Of a stretch of DNA of 22,871 nucleotides, positions 3,078-10,903 are shown in pieces. The notes under the pieces were generated by a model. It was not told where the DNA came from. It did no database searches and saw nothing but the letters and a program-made list of their open reading frames with translations. A program made the translations under genes and the position numbers. Location: NCBI GenBank assembly GCA_025774615.1, contig JALGVQ010000073.1, positions 1-22,871 on the forward strand, given 5' to 3'. The stretch comes from a bacterium (GTDB lineage Bacteria > Blakebacterota > Blakebacteria > Blakebacterales > Blakebacteraceae). How positions within the stretch are numbered: position 1 is the stretch's first letter; every line of letters starts with the position of its first letter.

Positions 3078-3629
3078 CTATTTTTTCGGCTTCTTTGGTT
3101 TCTTCTTCCCTACCTTCTTCGGCTTCTTTTCCTTCGGATCCGGTTGCTGCTGCAGTTCCGGCTGTTCCGTGGGAGGAGTCGTTCTGTAACTCGTGGTCGA
3201 GATCAGGACATCGTTCTCACCATCACCATCCATGTCCACGTCTGCATAGACGATCACGTAGAGGTTGTTATATCCGACACCATCCCGCTCCTCATTCAGA
3301 GCGTAGATCACATACCGGTGAAGGTGCCCGTCCGGCAGTGTCACTCCGAGCTCGGGGATATCCCGATGGACACCACTCAGGACGTCGATCCGGCTATTTT
3401 CGGGAAAGAAGGTGCCGTACTCGGCCAGATATAATTCCTCCCCCTGCTCGATGAAGTGGATGTACTCCTCGATTACCGTGTAGAGGGCTTTCGATTTAGC
3501 GGCAGTGAAGTTGGGGATCGAGATTCCTACCAGAACGCCGAGCACCGTGATCGTGATAATGAGTTCAACGAGGGTGAATCCCCCCGCACGATGACGGTTC
3601 GTGATGCGGGTCTTGAAGAAGGGGCTCAT
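3078..3629 (-). CDS. Type IV pilin / pseudopilin-like protein with lysine-rich tail
   Basis: A 183-residue prepilin. A short basic leader ends RAGG, then F18-T-L-V-E22 opens a hydrophobic helix to about residue 41. Prepilin peptidase would cut after G17, and E22 is the conserved Glu5 of mature pilins. The C-terminal domain contains an acidic DxDxDG-type loop (D130, D132, D134, G135, D136, E138, D140) that looks Ca-binding, as in GspG-type pseudopilins and EF-hand-like loops. The last 18 residues are nearly all Lys and Pro (12 Lys), which is unusual for a pilin. AAGGAGG lies 6 bases before ATG 3629, and the ATG overlaps the upstream stop (ATGA). It could be a minor pilin of a type IV pilus or a type II secretion pseudopilin. 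A divergent PilB/GspE-type ATPase lies about 4.7 kb away. Confidence 0.87.
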   Translation of the reverse strand: MSPFFKTRITNRHRAGGFTLVELIITITVLGVLVGISIPNFTAAKSKALYTVIEEYIHFIEQGEELYLAEYGTFFPENSRIDVLSGVHRDIPELGVTLPDGHLHRYVIYALNEERDGVGYNNLYVIVYADVDMDGDGENDVLISTTSYRTTPPTEQPELQQQPDPKEKKPKKVGKKKPKKPKK

Positions 3630-4207
3630 TTCGGCCCTCCTTCGGTGAATACCATGTTGAACCCGGGAGTCTCAGGAGGCACGGCAAGGGAGAGTTCGTA
3701 CATCCGCGGCGACGGCCGTGAGTAATTGAACATCTCCAGGTCGGATTCCTCAATGAATCCTGTGGGGAGATACTCCTCCAGGAGTACGGCCAGCCTGTCG
3801 GGACTCTCACCTTCGATCCTCAGATATTCGCGCAATGCCGAATCGATGATCACCATGGCGGCCACCGGCGTTTCAGCAGCTTCAAGGGATTCAGTTTCCG
3901 TGATCGATGCCCCCAGGTAGAGGAAGACATTGACGATCACGATCACCACGACCAGTGCGATCGGCACCATCCGCTGCAGCCGGGCCTGTCGCTTCTTTGC
4001 CTCCTCACGATCCTGGCGCTTGAGTTCGACAGATTCGCTCTTTTCGACCGACTTCTCCACGACCTCTCCCGCTGCCTGCAAGGCAAGACATTTATTGCAG
4101 GTGGCCGCACCCTCCCCGCCGGGGGGGAGGCACGTTTCACAGAGCGGCGCGCTGCAACTCGAACAGCTGCCTTCTGCTTCACGATCGGGATGCTGTGCAC
4201 ATTTCAC
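3626..4207 (-). CDS. Zinc-ribbon/B-box-like single-span membrane protein with pilin-like outer domain
   Basis: The protein has 193 residues and starts at GTG 4207, with GGGAG 7 bases upstream. The N-terminus carries C3, H6, C15, C18, C23, C26, C37 and C40, spaced like a B-box or double zinc-binding module. A charged, probably coiled-coil segment (about 47-79) leads to one membrane span (80-100). The outer domain includes ALREYLRIEGESPDRLAVLL followed by an EYLP stretch. This resembles the part after the helix in pseudopilins (AL..Y....G..P..L..L...YLP), but no prepilin cleavage site is present. It overlaps the next pilin gene by 4 bases (ATGA), so the two are probably made together. I do not recognise a named family. 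A cytoplasmic zinc module joined to a pilin-like outer domain suggests an assembly or coupling factor, which is inference. Confidence 0.75.
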   Translation of the reverse strand: MKCAQHPDREAEGSCSSCSAPLCETCLPPGGEGAATCNKCLALQAAGEVVEKSVEKSESVELKRQDREEAKKRQARLQRMVPIALVVVIVIVNVFLYLGASITETESLEAAETPVAAMVIIDSALREYLRIEGESPDRLAVLLEEYLPTGFIEESDLEMFNYSRPSPRMYELSLAVPPETPGFNMVFTEGGPK

Positions 4208-4335: not shown

Positions 4336-7300
4336 ATGCCCATAAGACAAACCGGTGATCCGGGTGAAGCGCCCGGGACCGCAATCCCTGTCGGGGATAG
4401 AACCATGACCGATCCGATTGACCGCAGCTGCAGGGATGATGCAAAACCTGTTGCACTCTCCGCTACCGTCCTCTCACCGGGAATAGATACGGCCGATCGG
4501 GAAGCATCGATCGAGGACCACGTCGCTCAGGAAAAACGGGAACGCCTCTCTGACCGACTGCTGAACGAAAGCCCGACTGCTGAGCTCGTTCACCTGCTGT
4601 TGATCGGCATCGTCGCGGCCATCATCTGGGGAAGAGTCCCGAACAGCGCCGTATATCTCTGGGCATCGGCTGTAGTGCTCGTTACCGGTCTCCGTTTCAC
4701 ACTACGGCGGCATCTCTGCGCGAGAGGAGGGACGGCGGAGAGCATCTATCTGGCCATACGAGGATCGATTCTCCTTTCGGGTCTGGCCTGGGGCCTCGGT
4801 GTCCTGCTGCTGTCCGGAAGGCTTGGCCACGAAGAACTGGCACTGATCCTGGTTATATTTGCGGGCCTGGTCGCGGGTGCCACCAGCACCCTCATGGCGG
4901 ACAGGGTGAGTTTCCATATTTTTTCCGCGGCCATGCTGCTTCCCCTGATCGGAGCGTTACTGATCAGCGGTACAGCGCGCTTTAATATCTTCGCAGCGAT
5001 CCTGACCGCCCTCAACGGGATTATAGTTTCGGTCATCCATCGGAGATCTCACCAGCAACTCGCACTGCACCTCGAATCAAATGTCCGTCTGGAACTGAGC
5101 GATATACTGCTGGAAACCGAGCGGGATCGCCTGCAGGCTTTCTTCGAGCGGGCGCCGATCGCGATCGCGATGGTTGATCAGAAAAGCATCATCCTCGATA
5201 TCAATCCCGGATTCACCGGCATCTTCGGATATCAGCGTGAGGAGGCGATCGGTGCCGATCTGAACCTGCTGGTCGTCCCCGAGGAAGAGGTTGATCAGGC
5301 CCGGGCGTTCGACCAACAGATCGCTGGTGATGAGGCTACCATCATCGAGACGCTCCGGATGTCGAAAGAGGGAAAACTGATCCCGGTACAGGCTTCAGCC
5401 ATTCATTCAGCGGCAGGACCTGAGGCACTGACCTTTGTCATCTATGATGACATCAGCAGAATCAAGGAAGCCCAGGCGACGGTCGAATTCACCGAACGCG
5501 AACTCCGCCTCAGGAATGATATCTCGAACGCCTTTCTGACGTTGGATGATGAAGAGGTCTTTGCGGATATCCTGCAGATGATCCTGAAGACCTTCGAGAG
5601 CGAGTACGGAATATTCGGGTATATCGACGAGGAAGGATCGTGGGTCTGTCCGTCGATGACGCGTGACATCTGGGATAGCTGCCAGATGCCTGACAAGAAC
5701 ATCGTCTTCCCTGAGGAATCGTGGCCGGGATTCTGGGGTAAGTCGATGCGTGAGCGGGTGAGCGCCTTCCTGAACGAACCATTCACCGTCCCCGACGGTC
5801 ATCTACCTGTCTACCGTGCCCTCAACGTGCCGATCGTGCACCAGGACATCCTGATCGGTAATATCCTGATCGGCAATAAAGAGACCGACTATACCGATGC
5901 CGACCTGCATCTCCTGGAGGTTCTGGCAGCGAACATCGCTCCAATCATGAGCGCCAGGCTCCAGAGGGACCGGGAGGAAAAGGAACGGAGAGAAGCCGAG
6001 GAAGCACTGAGTGACGCCGAGGAGCAGTATCGGCGACTGGTCGAGTCCGCCTCTGATATGGTTTGGGAAGTGGACCTGGAAGGTAAGTGGTCATTCCTGA
6101 ATCACGCCGCCGAGGACCTGCTCGGAACCAGTCGTGACATCCTTCTGGGTCAGCCCTTTATCGAGAACATAGTCCCCGAATCGGTTGAACAGGGCGCACA
6201 GGAATTCCAGAGGGTCCTGTCAGGTGAGGAACTGATCGATTTCGAGATCGTCTTCTCCAGTTCTGATGGAGAGTCGAAGAACCTCAGTTTCGCGGCACGC
6301 CCGATCCTTGACAGCCAGGGCACCGTCACGGGCGCGCGCGGGATGGCCCGGGATGTAACAGCACGTGTCGCAGCCAGGGCAGCGCTGGATGAAGCCCGCA
6401 TATCCGCCGAGCAGATGGCCCAGGCGCGCACCAGTTTCCTGGCAAACATGAGTCATGAGATACGTACTCCGATGAACGGGATCCTGGGCATGACTGAACT
6501 TCTGCTCGATTCCGAACTGACTCCCGAACAGCGGAAATCTGCTCAGCTTGTACGCACTTCGGCGGATGCCCTGCTGCGGATCATCAACGACATCCTTGAT
6601 TTTTCGAAGATCGAGAGCGGCCACTTCGCTATCGAGGATATCCCCTTCGATCTGGCCGCGGTCGTCGACTCCACCCTCCGAACCTTTGTCGTCCCCGCAT
6701 TCGAGAAGGGGATCGAGCTCGTTTCCGATATCCATACCGATGTCCCCGGAATGGTGATGGGTGATCCCGGGAGACTCCGCCAGATCCTGAACAATCTTAT
6801 CGGCAACGCGGTGAAATTCACCCCCAAGGGTGAGATCGCTGTCAGGGTCGAGCTGGTCACCGATCCGGATAAGGGTGAGTGTCTGTACTTCGGAGTTCGG
6901 GATACCGGGATCGGCATCCCCGAGGAGAAGCTCGATCACATCTTCGAGGAGTTCTCACAGGCGGATGTATCCACCACGAGAGAGTACGGGGGGACCGGAC
7001 TCGGCCTGGCGATCTCGAACAGGATCGTCGGTCTCATGGGAGGGACGATCGAAGTCACCAGCATTGTCGGTGAGGGAAGCGAGTTCAGTTTCAGGACACC
7101 GCTCAGGGTCGGTGAAAGTGAGATTCATCCCGTCGGTGAAAGAGATCGGATTGCTCTGAGCGGTGTGCGGTCGATCGTGGTGGATGACAACACGACCAAC
7201 CGGCGGATCGTGCGTGAGATGCTCGGCGCCGTCAACATCTCGGTGGCCGAGGCCGAAGATGCAGACTCCGGCCTGGCCATGCTCCACCAGGCGGCGTCCT

Positions 7301-8349
7301 CCGGGAATCCATACGACCTCGCGGTCATCGACGGTTACATGCCGGGACGTGACGGATTCGAACTGGCGGAGATCATCCGGAATGATCCGGTCCTGAAAAA
7401 CACCAGGATGATGCTGCTGACCTCGGGCGCCCGCAAGGGTGACGGCCAGCGCTGCCGGGAGATAGGGGTCGATGCCTACCTCACCAAGCCGGTCTCCCGG
7501 ACCGACCTGCTCGAAGCGACCGTCGTCGTGCTTACAGAGAAAAAGGATGAGCAAAATACGGGGCGTCTGGTCACCCGACACTCTATCGAGGAAACCCGGC
7601 AGCATCGCCGTATCCTGCTGGCCGAAGACAATCCGGTGAACCAGAAGGTCGCCTCCACGATGCTCCGGAAACGGGGGCACACGGTCGATGTCGTGGAAAA
7701 CGGTCAGGAAGCGGTAGACGCTGTCCGGGAAAACAGGTATGACATCGTATTGATGGACATCCAGATGCCGACCATGGATGGTATCACCGCGGTCAGAGAG
7801 ATCCGATCCGATCAGCAGCATGCGGATCTGCCGATCATCGCCCTGACCGCCCACGCACTGAAGGGAGATGAAGAACGGTTCCTGGAAGCAGGGATGAATG
7901 GATATCTTTCAAAACCGTTCCGACCGCATCAGCTGTACGCCGTGGTTGAAGAGTGGACATCCGATCCGGCAGGAGATGCCATGATGAAACAGACCGGAGA
8001 TTCAGAATCACTTCCTGTCGACCTGGAGTCTTTCCGGGAGACGATGCGGGAGGCCGGGGCTGAAGACGCTGTTGAGAGCATGCTGGAACTCTTCCTCGAT
8101 GACGCCCCCGGCAGAATGGAGGCGCTGCAGGAAGCAGGCGCTGATAGTGATGCCGAAACCATCGCAAAGGCGGCCCACGCCTACAAATCTGCTGCCGCCA
8201 CTATCGGGGCAAGCGAACTTGCCTCCACTCTGAACACCATCGAGTCTCTTTCGAAAGATGATGATATAGAGGGAGCGATCAGCCACATTGAAACAGCACA
8301 GGCGCAGCACACCGAAGTGATGGAGTACCTCAAAGCTTATATGCAATAA
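4336..8349 (+). CDS. Six-TM hybrid sensor histidine kinase (PAS-GAF-PAS-HisKA-HATPase-REC-REC-Hpt)
   Basis: A 1337-residue membrane kinase carrying a whole phosphorelay. About six membrane spans fill residues 82-236. PAS domains lie near 264-380 and 567-690, with a GAF domain between (about 395-555). HisKA follows, with phospho-acceptor H707 (MSHEIRTPMNG). The ATPase has N824 (N box), the D856 G1 motif (DTGIGIP) and GGTGLGLA. Two receivers follow with acceptors D999 and D1141, then an Hpt domain with H1281 (HAYKSAA). By family, phosphate passes His, Asp, His, then to an external receiver. The start is uncertain: ATG 4336 and ATG 4405 both lack a strong ribosome site, and both precede the first span. 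The ATPase gene follows after 12 bases, so the natural partners are the receivers at 9918-10514 and 10532-10903. The signal is unknown. Confidence 0.93.
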   Translation: MPIRQTGDPGEAPGTAIPVGDRTMTDPIDRSCRDDAKPVALSATVLSPGIDTADREASIEDHVAQEKRERLSDRLLNESPTAELVHLLLIGIVAAIIWGRVPNSAVYLWASAVVLVTGLRFTLRRHLCARGGTAESIYLAIRGSILLSGLAWGLGVLLLSGRLGHEELALILVIFAGLVAGATSTLMADRVSFHIFSAAMLLPLIGALLISGTARFNIFAAILTALNGIIVSVIHRRSHQQLALHLESNVRLELSDILLETERDRLQAFFERAPIAIAMVDQKSIILDINPGFTGIFGYQREEAIGADLNLLVVPEEEVDQARAFDQQIAGDEATIIETLRMSKEGKLIPVQASAIHSAAGPEALTFVIYDDISRIKEAQATVEFTERELRLRNDISNAFLTLDDEEVFADILQMILKTFESEYGIFGYIDEEGSWVCPSMTRDIWDSCQMPDKNIVFPEESWPGFWGKSMRERVSAFLNEPFTVPDGHLPVYRALNVPIVHQDILIGNILIGNKETDYTDADLHLLEVLAANIAPIMSARLQRDREEKERREAEEALSDAEEQYRRLVESASDMVWEVDLEGKWSFLNHAAEDLLGTSRDILLGQPFIENIVPESVEQGAQEFQRVLSGEELIDFEIVFSSSDGESKNLSFAARPILDSQGTVTGARGMARDVTARVAARAALDEARISAEQMAQARTSFLANMSHEIRTPMNGILGMTELLLDSELTPEQRKSAQLVRTSADALLRIINDILDFSKIESGHFAIEDIPFDLAAVVDSTLRTFVVPAFEKGIELVSDIHTDVPGMVMGDPGRLRQILNNLIGNAVKFTPKGEIAVRVELVTDPDKGECLYFGVRDTGIGIPEEKLDHIFEEFSQADVSTTREYGGTGLGLAISNRIVGLMGGTIEVTSIVGEGSEFSFRTPLRVGESEIHPVGERDRIALSGVRSIVVDDNTTNRRIVREMLGAVNISVAEAEDADSGLAMLHQAASSGNPYDLAVIDGYMPGRDGFELAEIIRNDPVLKNTRMMLLTSGARKGDGQRCREIGVDAYLTKPVSRTDLLEATVVVLTEKKDEQNTGRLVTRHSIEETRQHRRILLAEDNPVNQKVASTMLRKRGHTVDVVENGQEAVDAVRENRYDIVLMDIQMPTMDGITAVREIRSDQQHADLPIIALTAHALKGDEERFLEAGMNGYLSKPFRPHQLYAVVEEWTSDPAGDAMMKQTGDSESLPVDLESFRETMREAGAEDAVESMLELFLDDAPGRMEALQEAGADSDAETIAKAAHAYKSAAATIGASELASTLNTIESLSKDDDIEGAISHIETAQAQHTEVMEYLKAYMQ

Positions 8350-8353: not shown

Positions 8354-8361
8354 CGGTGCCG

Positions 8362-9939
8362 GTGATCGACAGCAGGTCATGCCAATGGATGGTCGACGCG
8401 GTCAGGAAGGCAGGATATTCCGCACCTGATATTCTCTGTCTTGATCCACCAGATACCATCACGGAACTGTGGAAGGACACTGCTGAACAGTCAGGTATCA
8501 CCCTTGACGAACTGGCGGATATCATTGCCCGTCATGCCAAACTGAAGCAGGCTGATCTGAACAGTGCTGATGACCTCGCGCTCAAGTTCCTCCCTGAAAA
8601 GATCGCCCACCAGTATCTCGTATTCCCCCTCCGTGAGGACCATGAGACTCTGGTCGTCGCCACCTCCGCTCCCTTCGATCTTGATGTTTCCAAGGTGATC
8701 AGGTTCGCCTCCGGCAGATCCCCCGAGTTCGAGATCGCTCCTCCCGAAGCACTTCAGGAGAAGATCGAGGCACGCTACTCACCCGACCGGATCGTCGAAG
8801 GCCTGCTCGGTGATATGGATGTCCTCGGTGAGGATGTGACGGTTCTGGGTGAGCGGAGTGATGAGGATATCGGTGTCACCGACATCGAGGCGGAACCGGT
8901 GATCAGACTCACGAGTGCCATCATGCGGGATGCCATCATCCAGGGCGCGAGTGATGTGCACATCGAACCCTCACGCATCGGCGGTGTGGTCCGGTTCCGT
9001 GTCGATGGAGTCATGCGCCACTACATGCAGATGCCGATACCGGCCCTGATCAGGATCGTTTCGAGGTTCAAGATCCTCTCGAAAATGGATATCGCCGATC
9101 GGCTCCGACCTCAGGACGGCCGGGCAACGGTGAGAGTGAGGGGGCGCAGCTACGACATGCGTATCTCTACCGTACCGACCCAGGTGGCCGAAAAGATGGT
9201 TATCCGGATACTCGATTCGGGGGCTGCCGTCTCTCTGGACGAGATTGGTGTCATGCCGGCCGAATTGGAAGAGTTTCGCCAACTCCTCTCACGGCGTGAC
9301 AGCGTTGTCATCATCACCGGACCGACCGGGTCGGGGAAAACCACCACCTTTTATTCTGCCCTGCGCGAACTCGCGACAGGATCGGTGAACATCATCACCG
9401 TAGAGAATCCGATCGAGTACGAACTGGACAGTATCACGCAGATACAGGTGGAACCGGACCAGGGGGTCACCTTCGCTTCAGCCCTGCGTGCCATCCTGAG
9501 GCAGGATCCCGATATCATCATGATCGGAGAGATCCGGGACGCGGAAACCGCGGGGATCGCTGTTCAGGCCAGTCTCACCGGTCATCTGGTGCTCGCCACC
9601 ATGCATACCAACGATTCGGTCGGCGTGATCACCCGACTGACCGACCTGGGACTCGATCCGACCGCTATCGCTGAATCGCTCAGGGGAGCGCTTGCCCAAC
9701 GGCTTCTGAGGAAGGTCTGCCGGGAGTGCGCCGAGCGGATACTCGAAGAGGATCTAACACCAGAGGAACGCGAGCAGTCCGATCGATACGGTGTCCTCCC
9801 GATCTACCGCGCCAAGGGCTGTACCCTGTGCGGTAATACCGGTTATCGGGGGCGGTTCGCGGTCATGGAGCTATGGAGTTCCAATGCTGAACTGGAAGAA
9901 CTTATCGCTCGAAGACATTGCTGGACGCCGCGCTGGTGA
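8362..9939 (+). CDS. PilB/GspE-type secretion or pilus assembly ATPase, C-terminus cut by a frameshift
   Basis: 525 residues from GTG 8362. The N-terminal region (about 30-130) resembles the MshEN/GspE N-domain. Catalytic motifs are intact: Walker A GPTGSGKT (320-327, K326), Asp box TVENPIEYE, Walker B with E390 in IGEIRD, and the His box LATMHTND. A zinc site CxxC...CxxC sits at C453, C456, C487 and C490. Such hexameric ATPases drive type IV pilus extension or type II secretion from the cytoplasmic face. After NAELEELIARR the frame gives eight unrelated residues and a stop. The expected family ending (an LxxAL...V..G.TTL.EV motif) is present one frame away from 9918, fused to a receiver. About 20 family-typical residues before that motif are also missing. 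It is either a recent frameshift or deletion, or a sequence error. Confidence 0.88.
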   Translation: MIDSRSCQWMVDAVRKAGYSAPDILCLDPPDTITELWKDTAEQSGITLDELADIIARHAKLKQADLNSADDLALKFLPEKIAHQYLVFPLREDHETLVVATSAPFDLDVSKVIRFASGRSPEFEIAPPEALQEKIEARYSPDRIVEGLLGDMDVLGEDVTVLGERSDEDIGVTDIEAEPVIRLTSAIMRDAIIQGASDVHIEPSRIGGVVRFRVDGVMRHYMQMPIPALIRIVSRFKILSKMDIADRLRPQDGRATVRVRGRSYDMRISTVPTQVAEKMVIRILDSGAAVSLDEIGVMPAELEEFRQLLSRRDSVVIITGPTGSGKTTTFYSALRELATGSVNIITVENPIEYELDSITQIQVEPDQGVTFASALRAILRQDPDIIMIGEIRDAETAGIAVQASLTGHLVLATMHTNDSVGVITRLTDLGLDPTAIAESLRGALAQRLLRKVCRECAERILEEDLTPEEREQSDRYGVLPIYRAKGCTLCGNTGYRGRFAVMELWSSNAELEELIARRHCWTPRW

Positions 9940-10514
9940 GGGTAGAGGATGGCACCACCACGCTCGATGAGGTCGAGCGGGTCATGGGGGTCGGCGGCGA
10001 GGACGTGACCGCCCCGGAATCGCCACTCGTGGAGCCGGCGATCGAACCCTCCTCCCCACCGGTGTCGGTACATGCAATCGGGAATAGTCCTGAATCGGAG
10101 ACCGAGATCCAGGCTGAGATGCAGGAGCAGTACCGGGGAGCATTGGCCCTTGTGGTGGATGATGACGCAGTGAACCGAAAACTCGGCCGTATCCTTCTCG
10201 AGAAAAATGGATTTCAGGTGGCAGAGGCGGAGGATGGCCAGGCGGCGATCGAACTGCTGAAGCTGGAATCGGAATTCAATCTCCTTGTGCTCGACCTCGA
10301 TATGCCGAACGCGAGCGGAGAAGATGTACTTCATGCGGTGCGTGGGTCGGTCAGTACTGCAGGAATCCCCGTCATCATCCTGACCGGTACCGAGGATCAC
10401 GACGCGGAAGTGCGTCTCATCGAAGCCGGCGCCGACGACTATATCCGAAAGCCGCTCAATCCACCGAAATTCATGGCCCGGGTCAACGCGGTGCTGAGAC
10501 GCGCCGGGACCTGA
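9918..10514 (+). CDS. Detached C-terminus of the ATPase plus linker and receiver (REC) domain
   Basis: The 198-codon open frame begins with LLDAALVRVEDGTTTLDEV, the usual last helix motif of PilB/GspE ATPases, and not with a credible start: TTG 9918 has no ribosome site. A Pro/Glu/Ser-rich linker of about 45 residues follows, then a full receiver: acidic pocket VVDDD, phospho-acceptor D126 (VLDLDMP), ILTGT and the conserved Lys in IRKPL. The natural reading is that this is the second half of one ATPase-linker-REC protein interrupted at about 9900-9918. If expressed alone, ATG 9984 or ATG 10120 could serve, but neither has a clear ribosome site. The receiver is a likely phosphate target of the Hpt domain of the upstream kinase (inference). 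Confidence 0.75.
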   Translation: MLDAALVRVEDGTTTLDEVERVMGVGGEDVTAPESPLVEPAIEPSSPPVSVHAIGNSPESETEIQAEMQEQYRGALALVVDDDAVNRKLGRILLEKNGFQVAEAEDGQAAIELLKLESEFNLLVLDLDMPNASGEDVLHAVRGSVSTAGIPVIILTGTEDHDAEVRLIEAGADDYIRKPLNPPKFMARVNAVLRRAGT

Positions 10515-10531
10515 GAACGAACGGATCAGAA

Positions 10532-10903
10532 ATGGACGGAACACAGACCATTCTCGTGATCGATGACGAAGAGAACATCCGTGAACTGGTGCGAGCCATA
10601 CTGGAGAACGCAGGTTACGAGGTGCTCGACGCGGCTGATGGTGATCTCGGGATCGAAATCTTCCAGGCAAACCAGGTAGACCTGATCATCACCGATCTGA
10701 TCATGCCCGGGAAGGAAGGTATCGAGACCATCTCTGAACTGAAGAAGGAACAGCCCGACCTCAAGATCATCGCTATCTCAGGCGCCGTGGACAGTTCTAC
10801 CTACCTCCATCTGGCAGGCAGTCTGGGCGCCGATGAGACCCTCGGAAAACCGTTCAAGGTGAACGAACTCATTGAAACCGTTGAACGACTCCTGAATCAG
10901 TAA
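10532..10903 (+). CDS. Single-domain CheY-like response regulator
   Basis: 123 residues that are nearly all receiver: acidic pair D11-D12 (VIDDEEN), phospho-acceptor D55 (ITDLIMPG), the Ser of AISGA in place of the usual Thr, and Lys of GKPFKV. There is no output domain, so it acts by protein contact or as a phosphate shuttle or sink. It starts at ATG 10532, 17 bases after the previous stop, with only a weak GGA upstream. It ends plus-strand transcription just before the hairpin at 10908. As the last gene after a hybrid kinase and an ATPase-REC, it probably serves the same phosphorelay. Direct control of pilus or secretion activity is inference. Confidence 0.92.
   Translation: MDGTQTILVIDDEENIRELVRAILENAGYEVLDAADGDLGIEIFQANQVDLIITDLIMPGKEGIETISELKKEQPDLKIIAISGAVDSSTYLHLAGSLGADETLGKPFKVNELIETVERLLNQ

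Follow-up and report, generated by a model that had tools for sequence, protein, structure and literature searches.

Introduction

The closest described relatives of the ATPase considered here are the GspE, PilB and MshE ATPases (PF00437, with the MshEN domain, PF05157). The MshEN domains that bind c-di-GMP do so through the motif RLGxx...LxxxLxxQ (PMC5013675), and MshEN has been found in association with receiver domains, as in Bd2402 of Bdellovibrio (PMC5013675). Type IV pili are also under two-component control in the Pil-Chp and PdeK-PdeR systems, which act through separate response regulators, cAMP, FimX or PilZ (PMC11656802). In hybrid kinase phosphorelays, phosphate passes from HisKA-REC-REC-Hpt to REC.

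The locus described here resembles each of these systems and departs from each of them. Like GspE, PilB and MshE, its ATPase has the MshEN-T2SSE domain order, the Walker A sequence GPTGSGKTTT and a CxxC...CxxC arrangement before GYRGR. Unlike them, its intact relatives possess a C-terminal receiver, and the copy studied here lacks both the last T2SSE positions and the c-di-GMP motif of MshEN. As in the MshEN-REC proteins typified by Bd2402, MshEN and REC belong to one polypeptide, but here REC follows a complete motor ATPase at its C-terminal end, and a dedicated hybrid kinase bearing an Hpt domain is encoded alongside. All of the phosphorelay domains are found in one operon, as in other hybrid kinase phosphorelays, yet the apparent output would be neither a transcription factor nor a second-messenger enzyme but a motor ATPase. 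Finally, two-component control of pilus motors is shared with Pil-Chp and PdeK-PdeR, but the receiver is here covalently part of the motor. We found no description of a kinase-linked ATPase-receiver fusion among the open-access papers searched.

We analyzed a stretch of 22,871 nucleotides, hereafter the window. With a probability of about 0.9, positions 8356 to 10514 represent one ancestral MshEN-T2SSE ATPase-receiver gene, the second in a conserved operon, from which 49 nt are missing such that the reading frame is shifted. The protein encoded there belongs to an existing family, of which it is a damaged representative.

Organization of the locus

The source genome (G000) is a MAG of 3.3 Mb in 324 contigs and is 82% complete; the window is its contig C74. 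The phylum is sampled by four genomes (G000-G003), and the three relatives, G001-G003, are all incomplete. The contig was assigned to the lineage of G000 because its FtsZ is 80% identical to the FtsZ of G002.

Positions 4336 to 8349 of the forward strand encode a hybrid histidine kinase of 1337 amino acids, in which Pfam identifies an N-terminal membrane region followed by PAS, GAF, PAS, HisKA, HATPase_c, REC, REC and Hpt. Its stop codon ends at 8349 and the ATPase frame starts at 8356 on the same strand, placing a kinase of the REC-REC-Hpt type directly upstream of the ATPase. The ATPase frame (8356-9939, 527 amino acids) matches MshEN (2.1e-14) and T2SSE (1.5e-115, profile positions 4-333 of 370), the latter with a score of 386 bits against a curated cut-off of 24.9. 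Walker A is present, as is the tetracysteine motif ahead of GYRGR (VCREC...GCTLCGNTGYRGR). Scores for the GspE and PilB equivalogs TIGR02533 and TIGR02538 fall below the NCBI cut-offs (464 versus 630 bits and 428 versus 676 bits, respectively). The MshEN profile is matched, yet the N-terminus of the window protein (ELWKDTAEQSGITLDELADIIARHAKL) lacks the R, G and Q of the c-di-GMP motif defined in PMC5013675.

Further along the same strand lie the receiver discussed below and a stand-alone receiver of 123 amino acids (REC2, 10532-10903, PF00072 1.4e-27), which is the last gene of the cluster. After this lone receiver, ftsZ, ftsA and the remaining cell-division and wall cluster are encoded on the opposite strand.

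On the other side of the kinase gene, and divergent from it, is a gene for a prepilin-like protein with an N_methyl motif (3078-3629, reverse strand), which adjoins the gene (3626-4207) of a small membrane protein with a zinc finger. In relatives, several ATPase-receiver fusions likewise have prepilin-like matches nearby.

The ATPase frame lacks 49 nucleotides

The ATPase is family-like up to IARR, and its translation then ends ...LEELIARR-HCWTPRW*. An initial annotation had described eight non-family residues at this end; the end is indeed out of family, but the residues number seven. A second frame, open from 9891 to 10514, begins KTLLDAALVRVEDGTTTLDEVERV, which is the C-terminal tail of the family. 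The tail itself (KTLLDAALVRVEDGTTTLDEVERVM, 9912-9986) is followed by a Pro/Glu-rich linker (9987-10148) and a full receiver (REC1, 10149-10484). We built a profile of this tail from the sequences of 186 relatives and searched the entire window with it in all six frames; only the second frame matched (E 2.1e-7; next best 2.2). The conserved C-terminal tail is thus complete in the window but sits in a different frame from the ATPase that precedes it. The receiver matches Response_reg (PF00072) at 2.3e-25 over profile positions 2-110 of 111, and its active site is complete: the DD pair in VVDDD, the phospho-Asp in LDLDMP (10293-10295; D126 of the frame counted from TTG 9918), the Thr in ILTG and the Lys in IRKPL. 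These results bear out the earlier description of a family final motif one frame over, from the region of 9918, that reads through a linker into a complete receiver.

The distance from GYRGR to GxTT is 48 codons (144 nt) in 135 of 148 scored ATPases, the exceptions being mostly regex slips or one residue longer. In the window this distance is 95 nt, so that 49 nt (16.3 codons) are missing from the C-terminal helix region, at a junction that lies between 9910 and 9917 and that is gap-free in all intact orthologues. Because 49 nt equals 1 modulo 3, this deficit accounts exactly for the frame change between ATPase and receiver. It also rules out a one-base change, which had been proposed alongside a small deletion as the cause of the break; the small deletion stands. 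Residues are lost at the junction as had been suggested, at 16.3 codons rather than about 20. Short repeats flanking the junction (CGCTCGAAGA and CGCTCGATGA, 55 nt apart) were considered as the cause of the deletion and set aside, as both copies are retained and the deletion is left unexplained by them.

In the truncated ATPase, the match to the T2SSE profile stops at position 333 of 370. An intact orthologue, by comparison, matches positions 2-370, and its alignment with the solved structures of GspE and PilB extends almost to their ends. The truncated protein is therefore likely to be unstable or inactive.

An open frame across the junction invites the possibility that programmed frameshifting fuses both frames into a single protein, since the -1 frame, beginning at 9891, runs across the junction without a stop. 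However, there is no XXXYYYZ heptamer, local RNA folding is no better than that of shuffled sequences (z -0.02), and 16 conserved residues would remain absent from the product, which makes frameshifting highly improbable.

In the receiver frame, third-position GC between 9918 and 10119 is 0.78, in line with coding sequence. Possible receiver starts are a GTG at 9936, which overlaps the TGA stop of the ATPase as GTGA (9936-9939), an ATG at 9984, which has a 5/6 match to AGGAGG at a spacing of 11, and an ATG at 10119. Judged by these features, GTG 9936 or ATG 9984 could serve as the receiver start, GTG 9936 being a candidate for re-initiation. The statement that the second frame has no credible start was accordingly too strong.

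Relatives carry the intact fusion

We used the read-through of both frames as a query against 386 genomes from across the domain and recovered co-linear single open reading frames comprising ATPase, tail, linker and receiver in seven of them, with a gap-free junction. The phylum of the best read-through match (G063), a large one distinct from that of the window, has fusions of approximately 715-890 amino acids in dozens of genera. Among 20 such loci retrieved with wider flanks, a kinase with REC-REC-Hpt lies directly upstream in several (L256, L259, L260, L263 and L264). With the L256 fusion as query, matches of E 1e-150 or better were found in 71 of 395 genomes. ATPase and receiver form one open reading frame in all 30 of the best loci inspected; the receiver match is full in 27, and the other three comprise two degenerate receivers and one contig end. 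The ATPase-receiver fusion is therefore common and widespread, and not unique to the window. When genome contigs were scanned with just the ATPase as query, the matches were all unfused ATPases, because close PilB/GspE homologues rank first.

The order of kinase and ATPase seen in the window recurs in L256, L260 and L267. L267 is a full three-gene cluster, and its identity to the window is 54.5% for the kinase part, 55.6% for the ATPase, 56.7% for the fused receiver and 44.3% for the lone receiver. The kinase adjoining the intact fusion in L256 is 47% identical to that of the window. Taken over L256 and L267, identity is 56% for the ATPase, 49-57% for the receiver and 47-55% for the kinase. 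The fused receiver of the window is 57% identical to that of L267, as against about 30% to other receivers, and REC2 shares 44% identity with the receiver that follows the L267 fusion and 49% with a receiver upstream of the L256 kinase. The operon is intact at approximately 55% identity in G395 and G693 (a hybrid kinase ending in Hpt, then the ATPase-receiver), with the lone receiver also present in G693. The incomplete genomes of the window's own phylum, G001-G003, contain no orthologue of the fusion, so the intact form is unseen close by. The ftsZ neighborhood holds other genes in G002, and in G003 the contig ends shortly past ftsZ.

In the ATPase tree, the window falls in a clade of 28 (SH-aLRT 100) whose other 27 members all have a C-terminal receiver, and the surrounding branch of 40 rows is likewise entirely fused. 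In the receiver tree, the window receiver groups with 29 fused receivers of the same ATPase subfamily (100/100), and is separated from both stand-alone receivers and the other receivers of the window. Since both trees place the two halves in one fused clade, we conclude that the halves share one fused ancestor. The window has the upstream kinase of this clade and the placement of both its halves there, and lacks the single open frame. The comparison with orthologues called for in the initial annotation has thus yielded single-frame fusions, in the same operon, within whose clade both halves are nested.

These trees contradict the idea that a truncated ATPase gene and an unrelated, independent response regulator gene are neighbors by coincidence. 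Receivers are abundant in the source genome (48 matches), which would make such an encounter conceivable, but the receiver's frame carries the ATPase tail and both halves belong to the same fused clade, so we give this idea almost no credence. A natural two-gene arrangement, in which the ATPase has evolved to stop here and the receiver is a separate, diffusible and functional protein, fares little better. The possible starts at 9936, 9984 and 10119 would allow it, and lone receivers are common beside such genes. However, the ATPase's own tail is still encoded in the second frame, 49 nt of a gap-free conserved helix have been lost, and all 30 of the nearest orthologues are fused. Close relatives with two separate genes would have favored such an arrangement, and they were found at none of the 30 nearest loci; we regard it as very improbable.

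Assembly flaw or real lesion

Both halves of the gene retain their catalytic residues and are free of further stops. Because they are otherwise intact, the break is either recent or not real, and it is probably an assembly flaw or a recent lesion and not a new kind of gene.

Scanning of 423 kb of the source genome revealed four tandem duplications, each with two exact copies, of 25, 38, 29 and 32 bp (L298:12510, L300:17228, L305:1183 and L328:8690, respectively). None is a multiple of three in length and at least three break genes; those broken in L298, L300 and L305 are, as named from their translations, a secretin, an anti-sigma-like gene and a sugar-binding protein. In 133 kb of the congener G001 there are ten tandem duplications, half of them multiples of three. 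Control loci from other genomes contain three tandem duplications in 1.25 Mb. These figures suggest that small joins in this pair of MAGs are assembly errors, with replication slippage in the cells as the alternative.

One of the ten in G001, exact and 25 bp long, disrupts the frame of a different T2SSE ATPase at L071 (G001:C480, approximately 864-916), within the tail segment that is also affected in the window; it could be an artefact, slippage or phase variation. Other exact tandem duplications of G001, of 22-66 bp, lie at L339:689, L341:223, L344:234, and L346:12487 and 3906, a rate far above that of the control genomes.

Against a general sequence error, we found no frame breaks among the 48 receiver domains of the source genome or in the window's other genes, which weakens that explanation. 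Three partial receiver matches in this genome had appeared to be candidates for frame breaks and were rejected, since natural inserts before the conserved Lys end the profile match early (G000:C25:3345-4169 and G000:C270:9813-10055).

If the deletion is real and fixed, the motor would be truncated and probably inactive, and re-initiation at GTG 9936 would perhaps yield a free receiver. Consistent with this, the contig is continuous through the junction, the GTG overlaps the ATPase stop, and the surrounding genes and the 48 receiver domains are unbroken; moreover, with at least three further T2SSE ATPases in the genome, a damaged copy may be dispensable. On the other hand, neither half shows decay, and frame-breaking small duplications are in excess in this assembly and that of the congener. 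We hold a fixed deletion only tentatively. For the 49-nt gap itself, we consider an assembly error somewhat probable and a real, recent lesion a serious possibility that falls short of an even chance. Should the lesion be real and the receiver be made from GTG 9936, a motor-fused switch would have been turned into a diffusible one, and short out-of-frame duplications and deletions in such motor and pilus genes might act as on/off switches in this lineage, a reading that we consider very improbable. The window copy serves mainly as a warning that a gene in this MAG or its congener can falsely look split, owing to the small out-of-frame joins that both contain.

A putative phosphorelay to a motor ATPase

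In its ancestral form, the gene at 8356-10514 would have stood in an operon whose conserved order is hybrid kinase (REC-REC-Hpt), ATPase-receiver and lone receiver; as written, the window would specify a motor without its last conserved segment and a receiver out of frame. Judging from domain order and operon structure, the kinase of intact relatives would sense its signal via the PAS and GAF domains, and phosphate would pass from His to REC, to Hpt and to the motor-attached receiver, with the lone receiver perhaps being a phosphate sink or a second target. The receiver might then set hexamer assembly or turnover of the PilB/GspE-like motor. Direct setting of the motor by phosphorylation, as the initial annotation had envisaged, is plausible. 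MshEN has lost the residues of the known c-di-GMP motif, so that the input may have changed from c-di-GMP to phosphorylation.

The intact module, an Hpt-bearing hybrid kinase with a receiver-bearing pilus or secretion motor, is conserved over many genera of one phylum and is present in others. If phosphorylation sets the motor directly, an environmental signal would have a short path to pilus extension or secretion that uses neither a transcription factor nor a second messenger.

Several related loci show variations of their own. Between the kinase and the intact fusion of L264 (G505) is a short protein (5289-6098) in which a receiver accompanies a portion of the N-terminal region of the ATPase, without the motor domain. 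Kinase-linked fusions at L261 (3821-5983), L279 and L281 have a degenerate C-terminal receiver, which in L261 lacks the usual phospho-Asp surroundings, suggesting that these are pseudo-receivers. In L241 (G520:C28), another fusion is interrupted about midway through the ATPase and occupies two overlapping frames; that genome's relatives have it intact.
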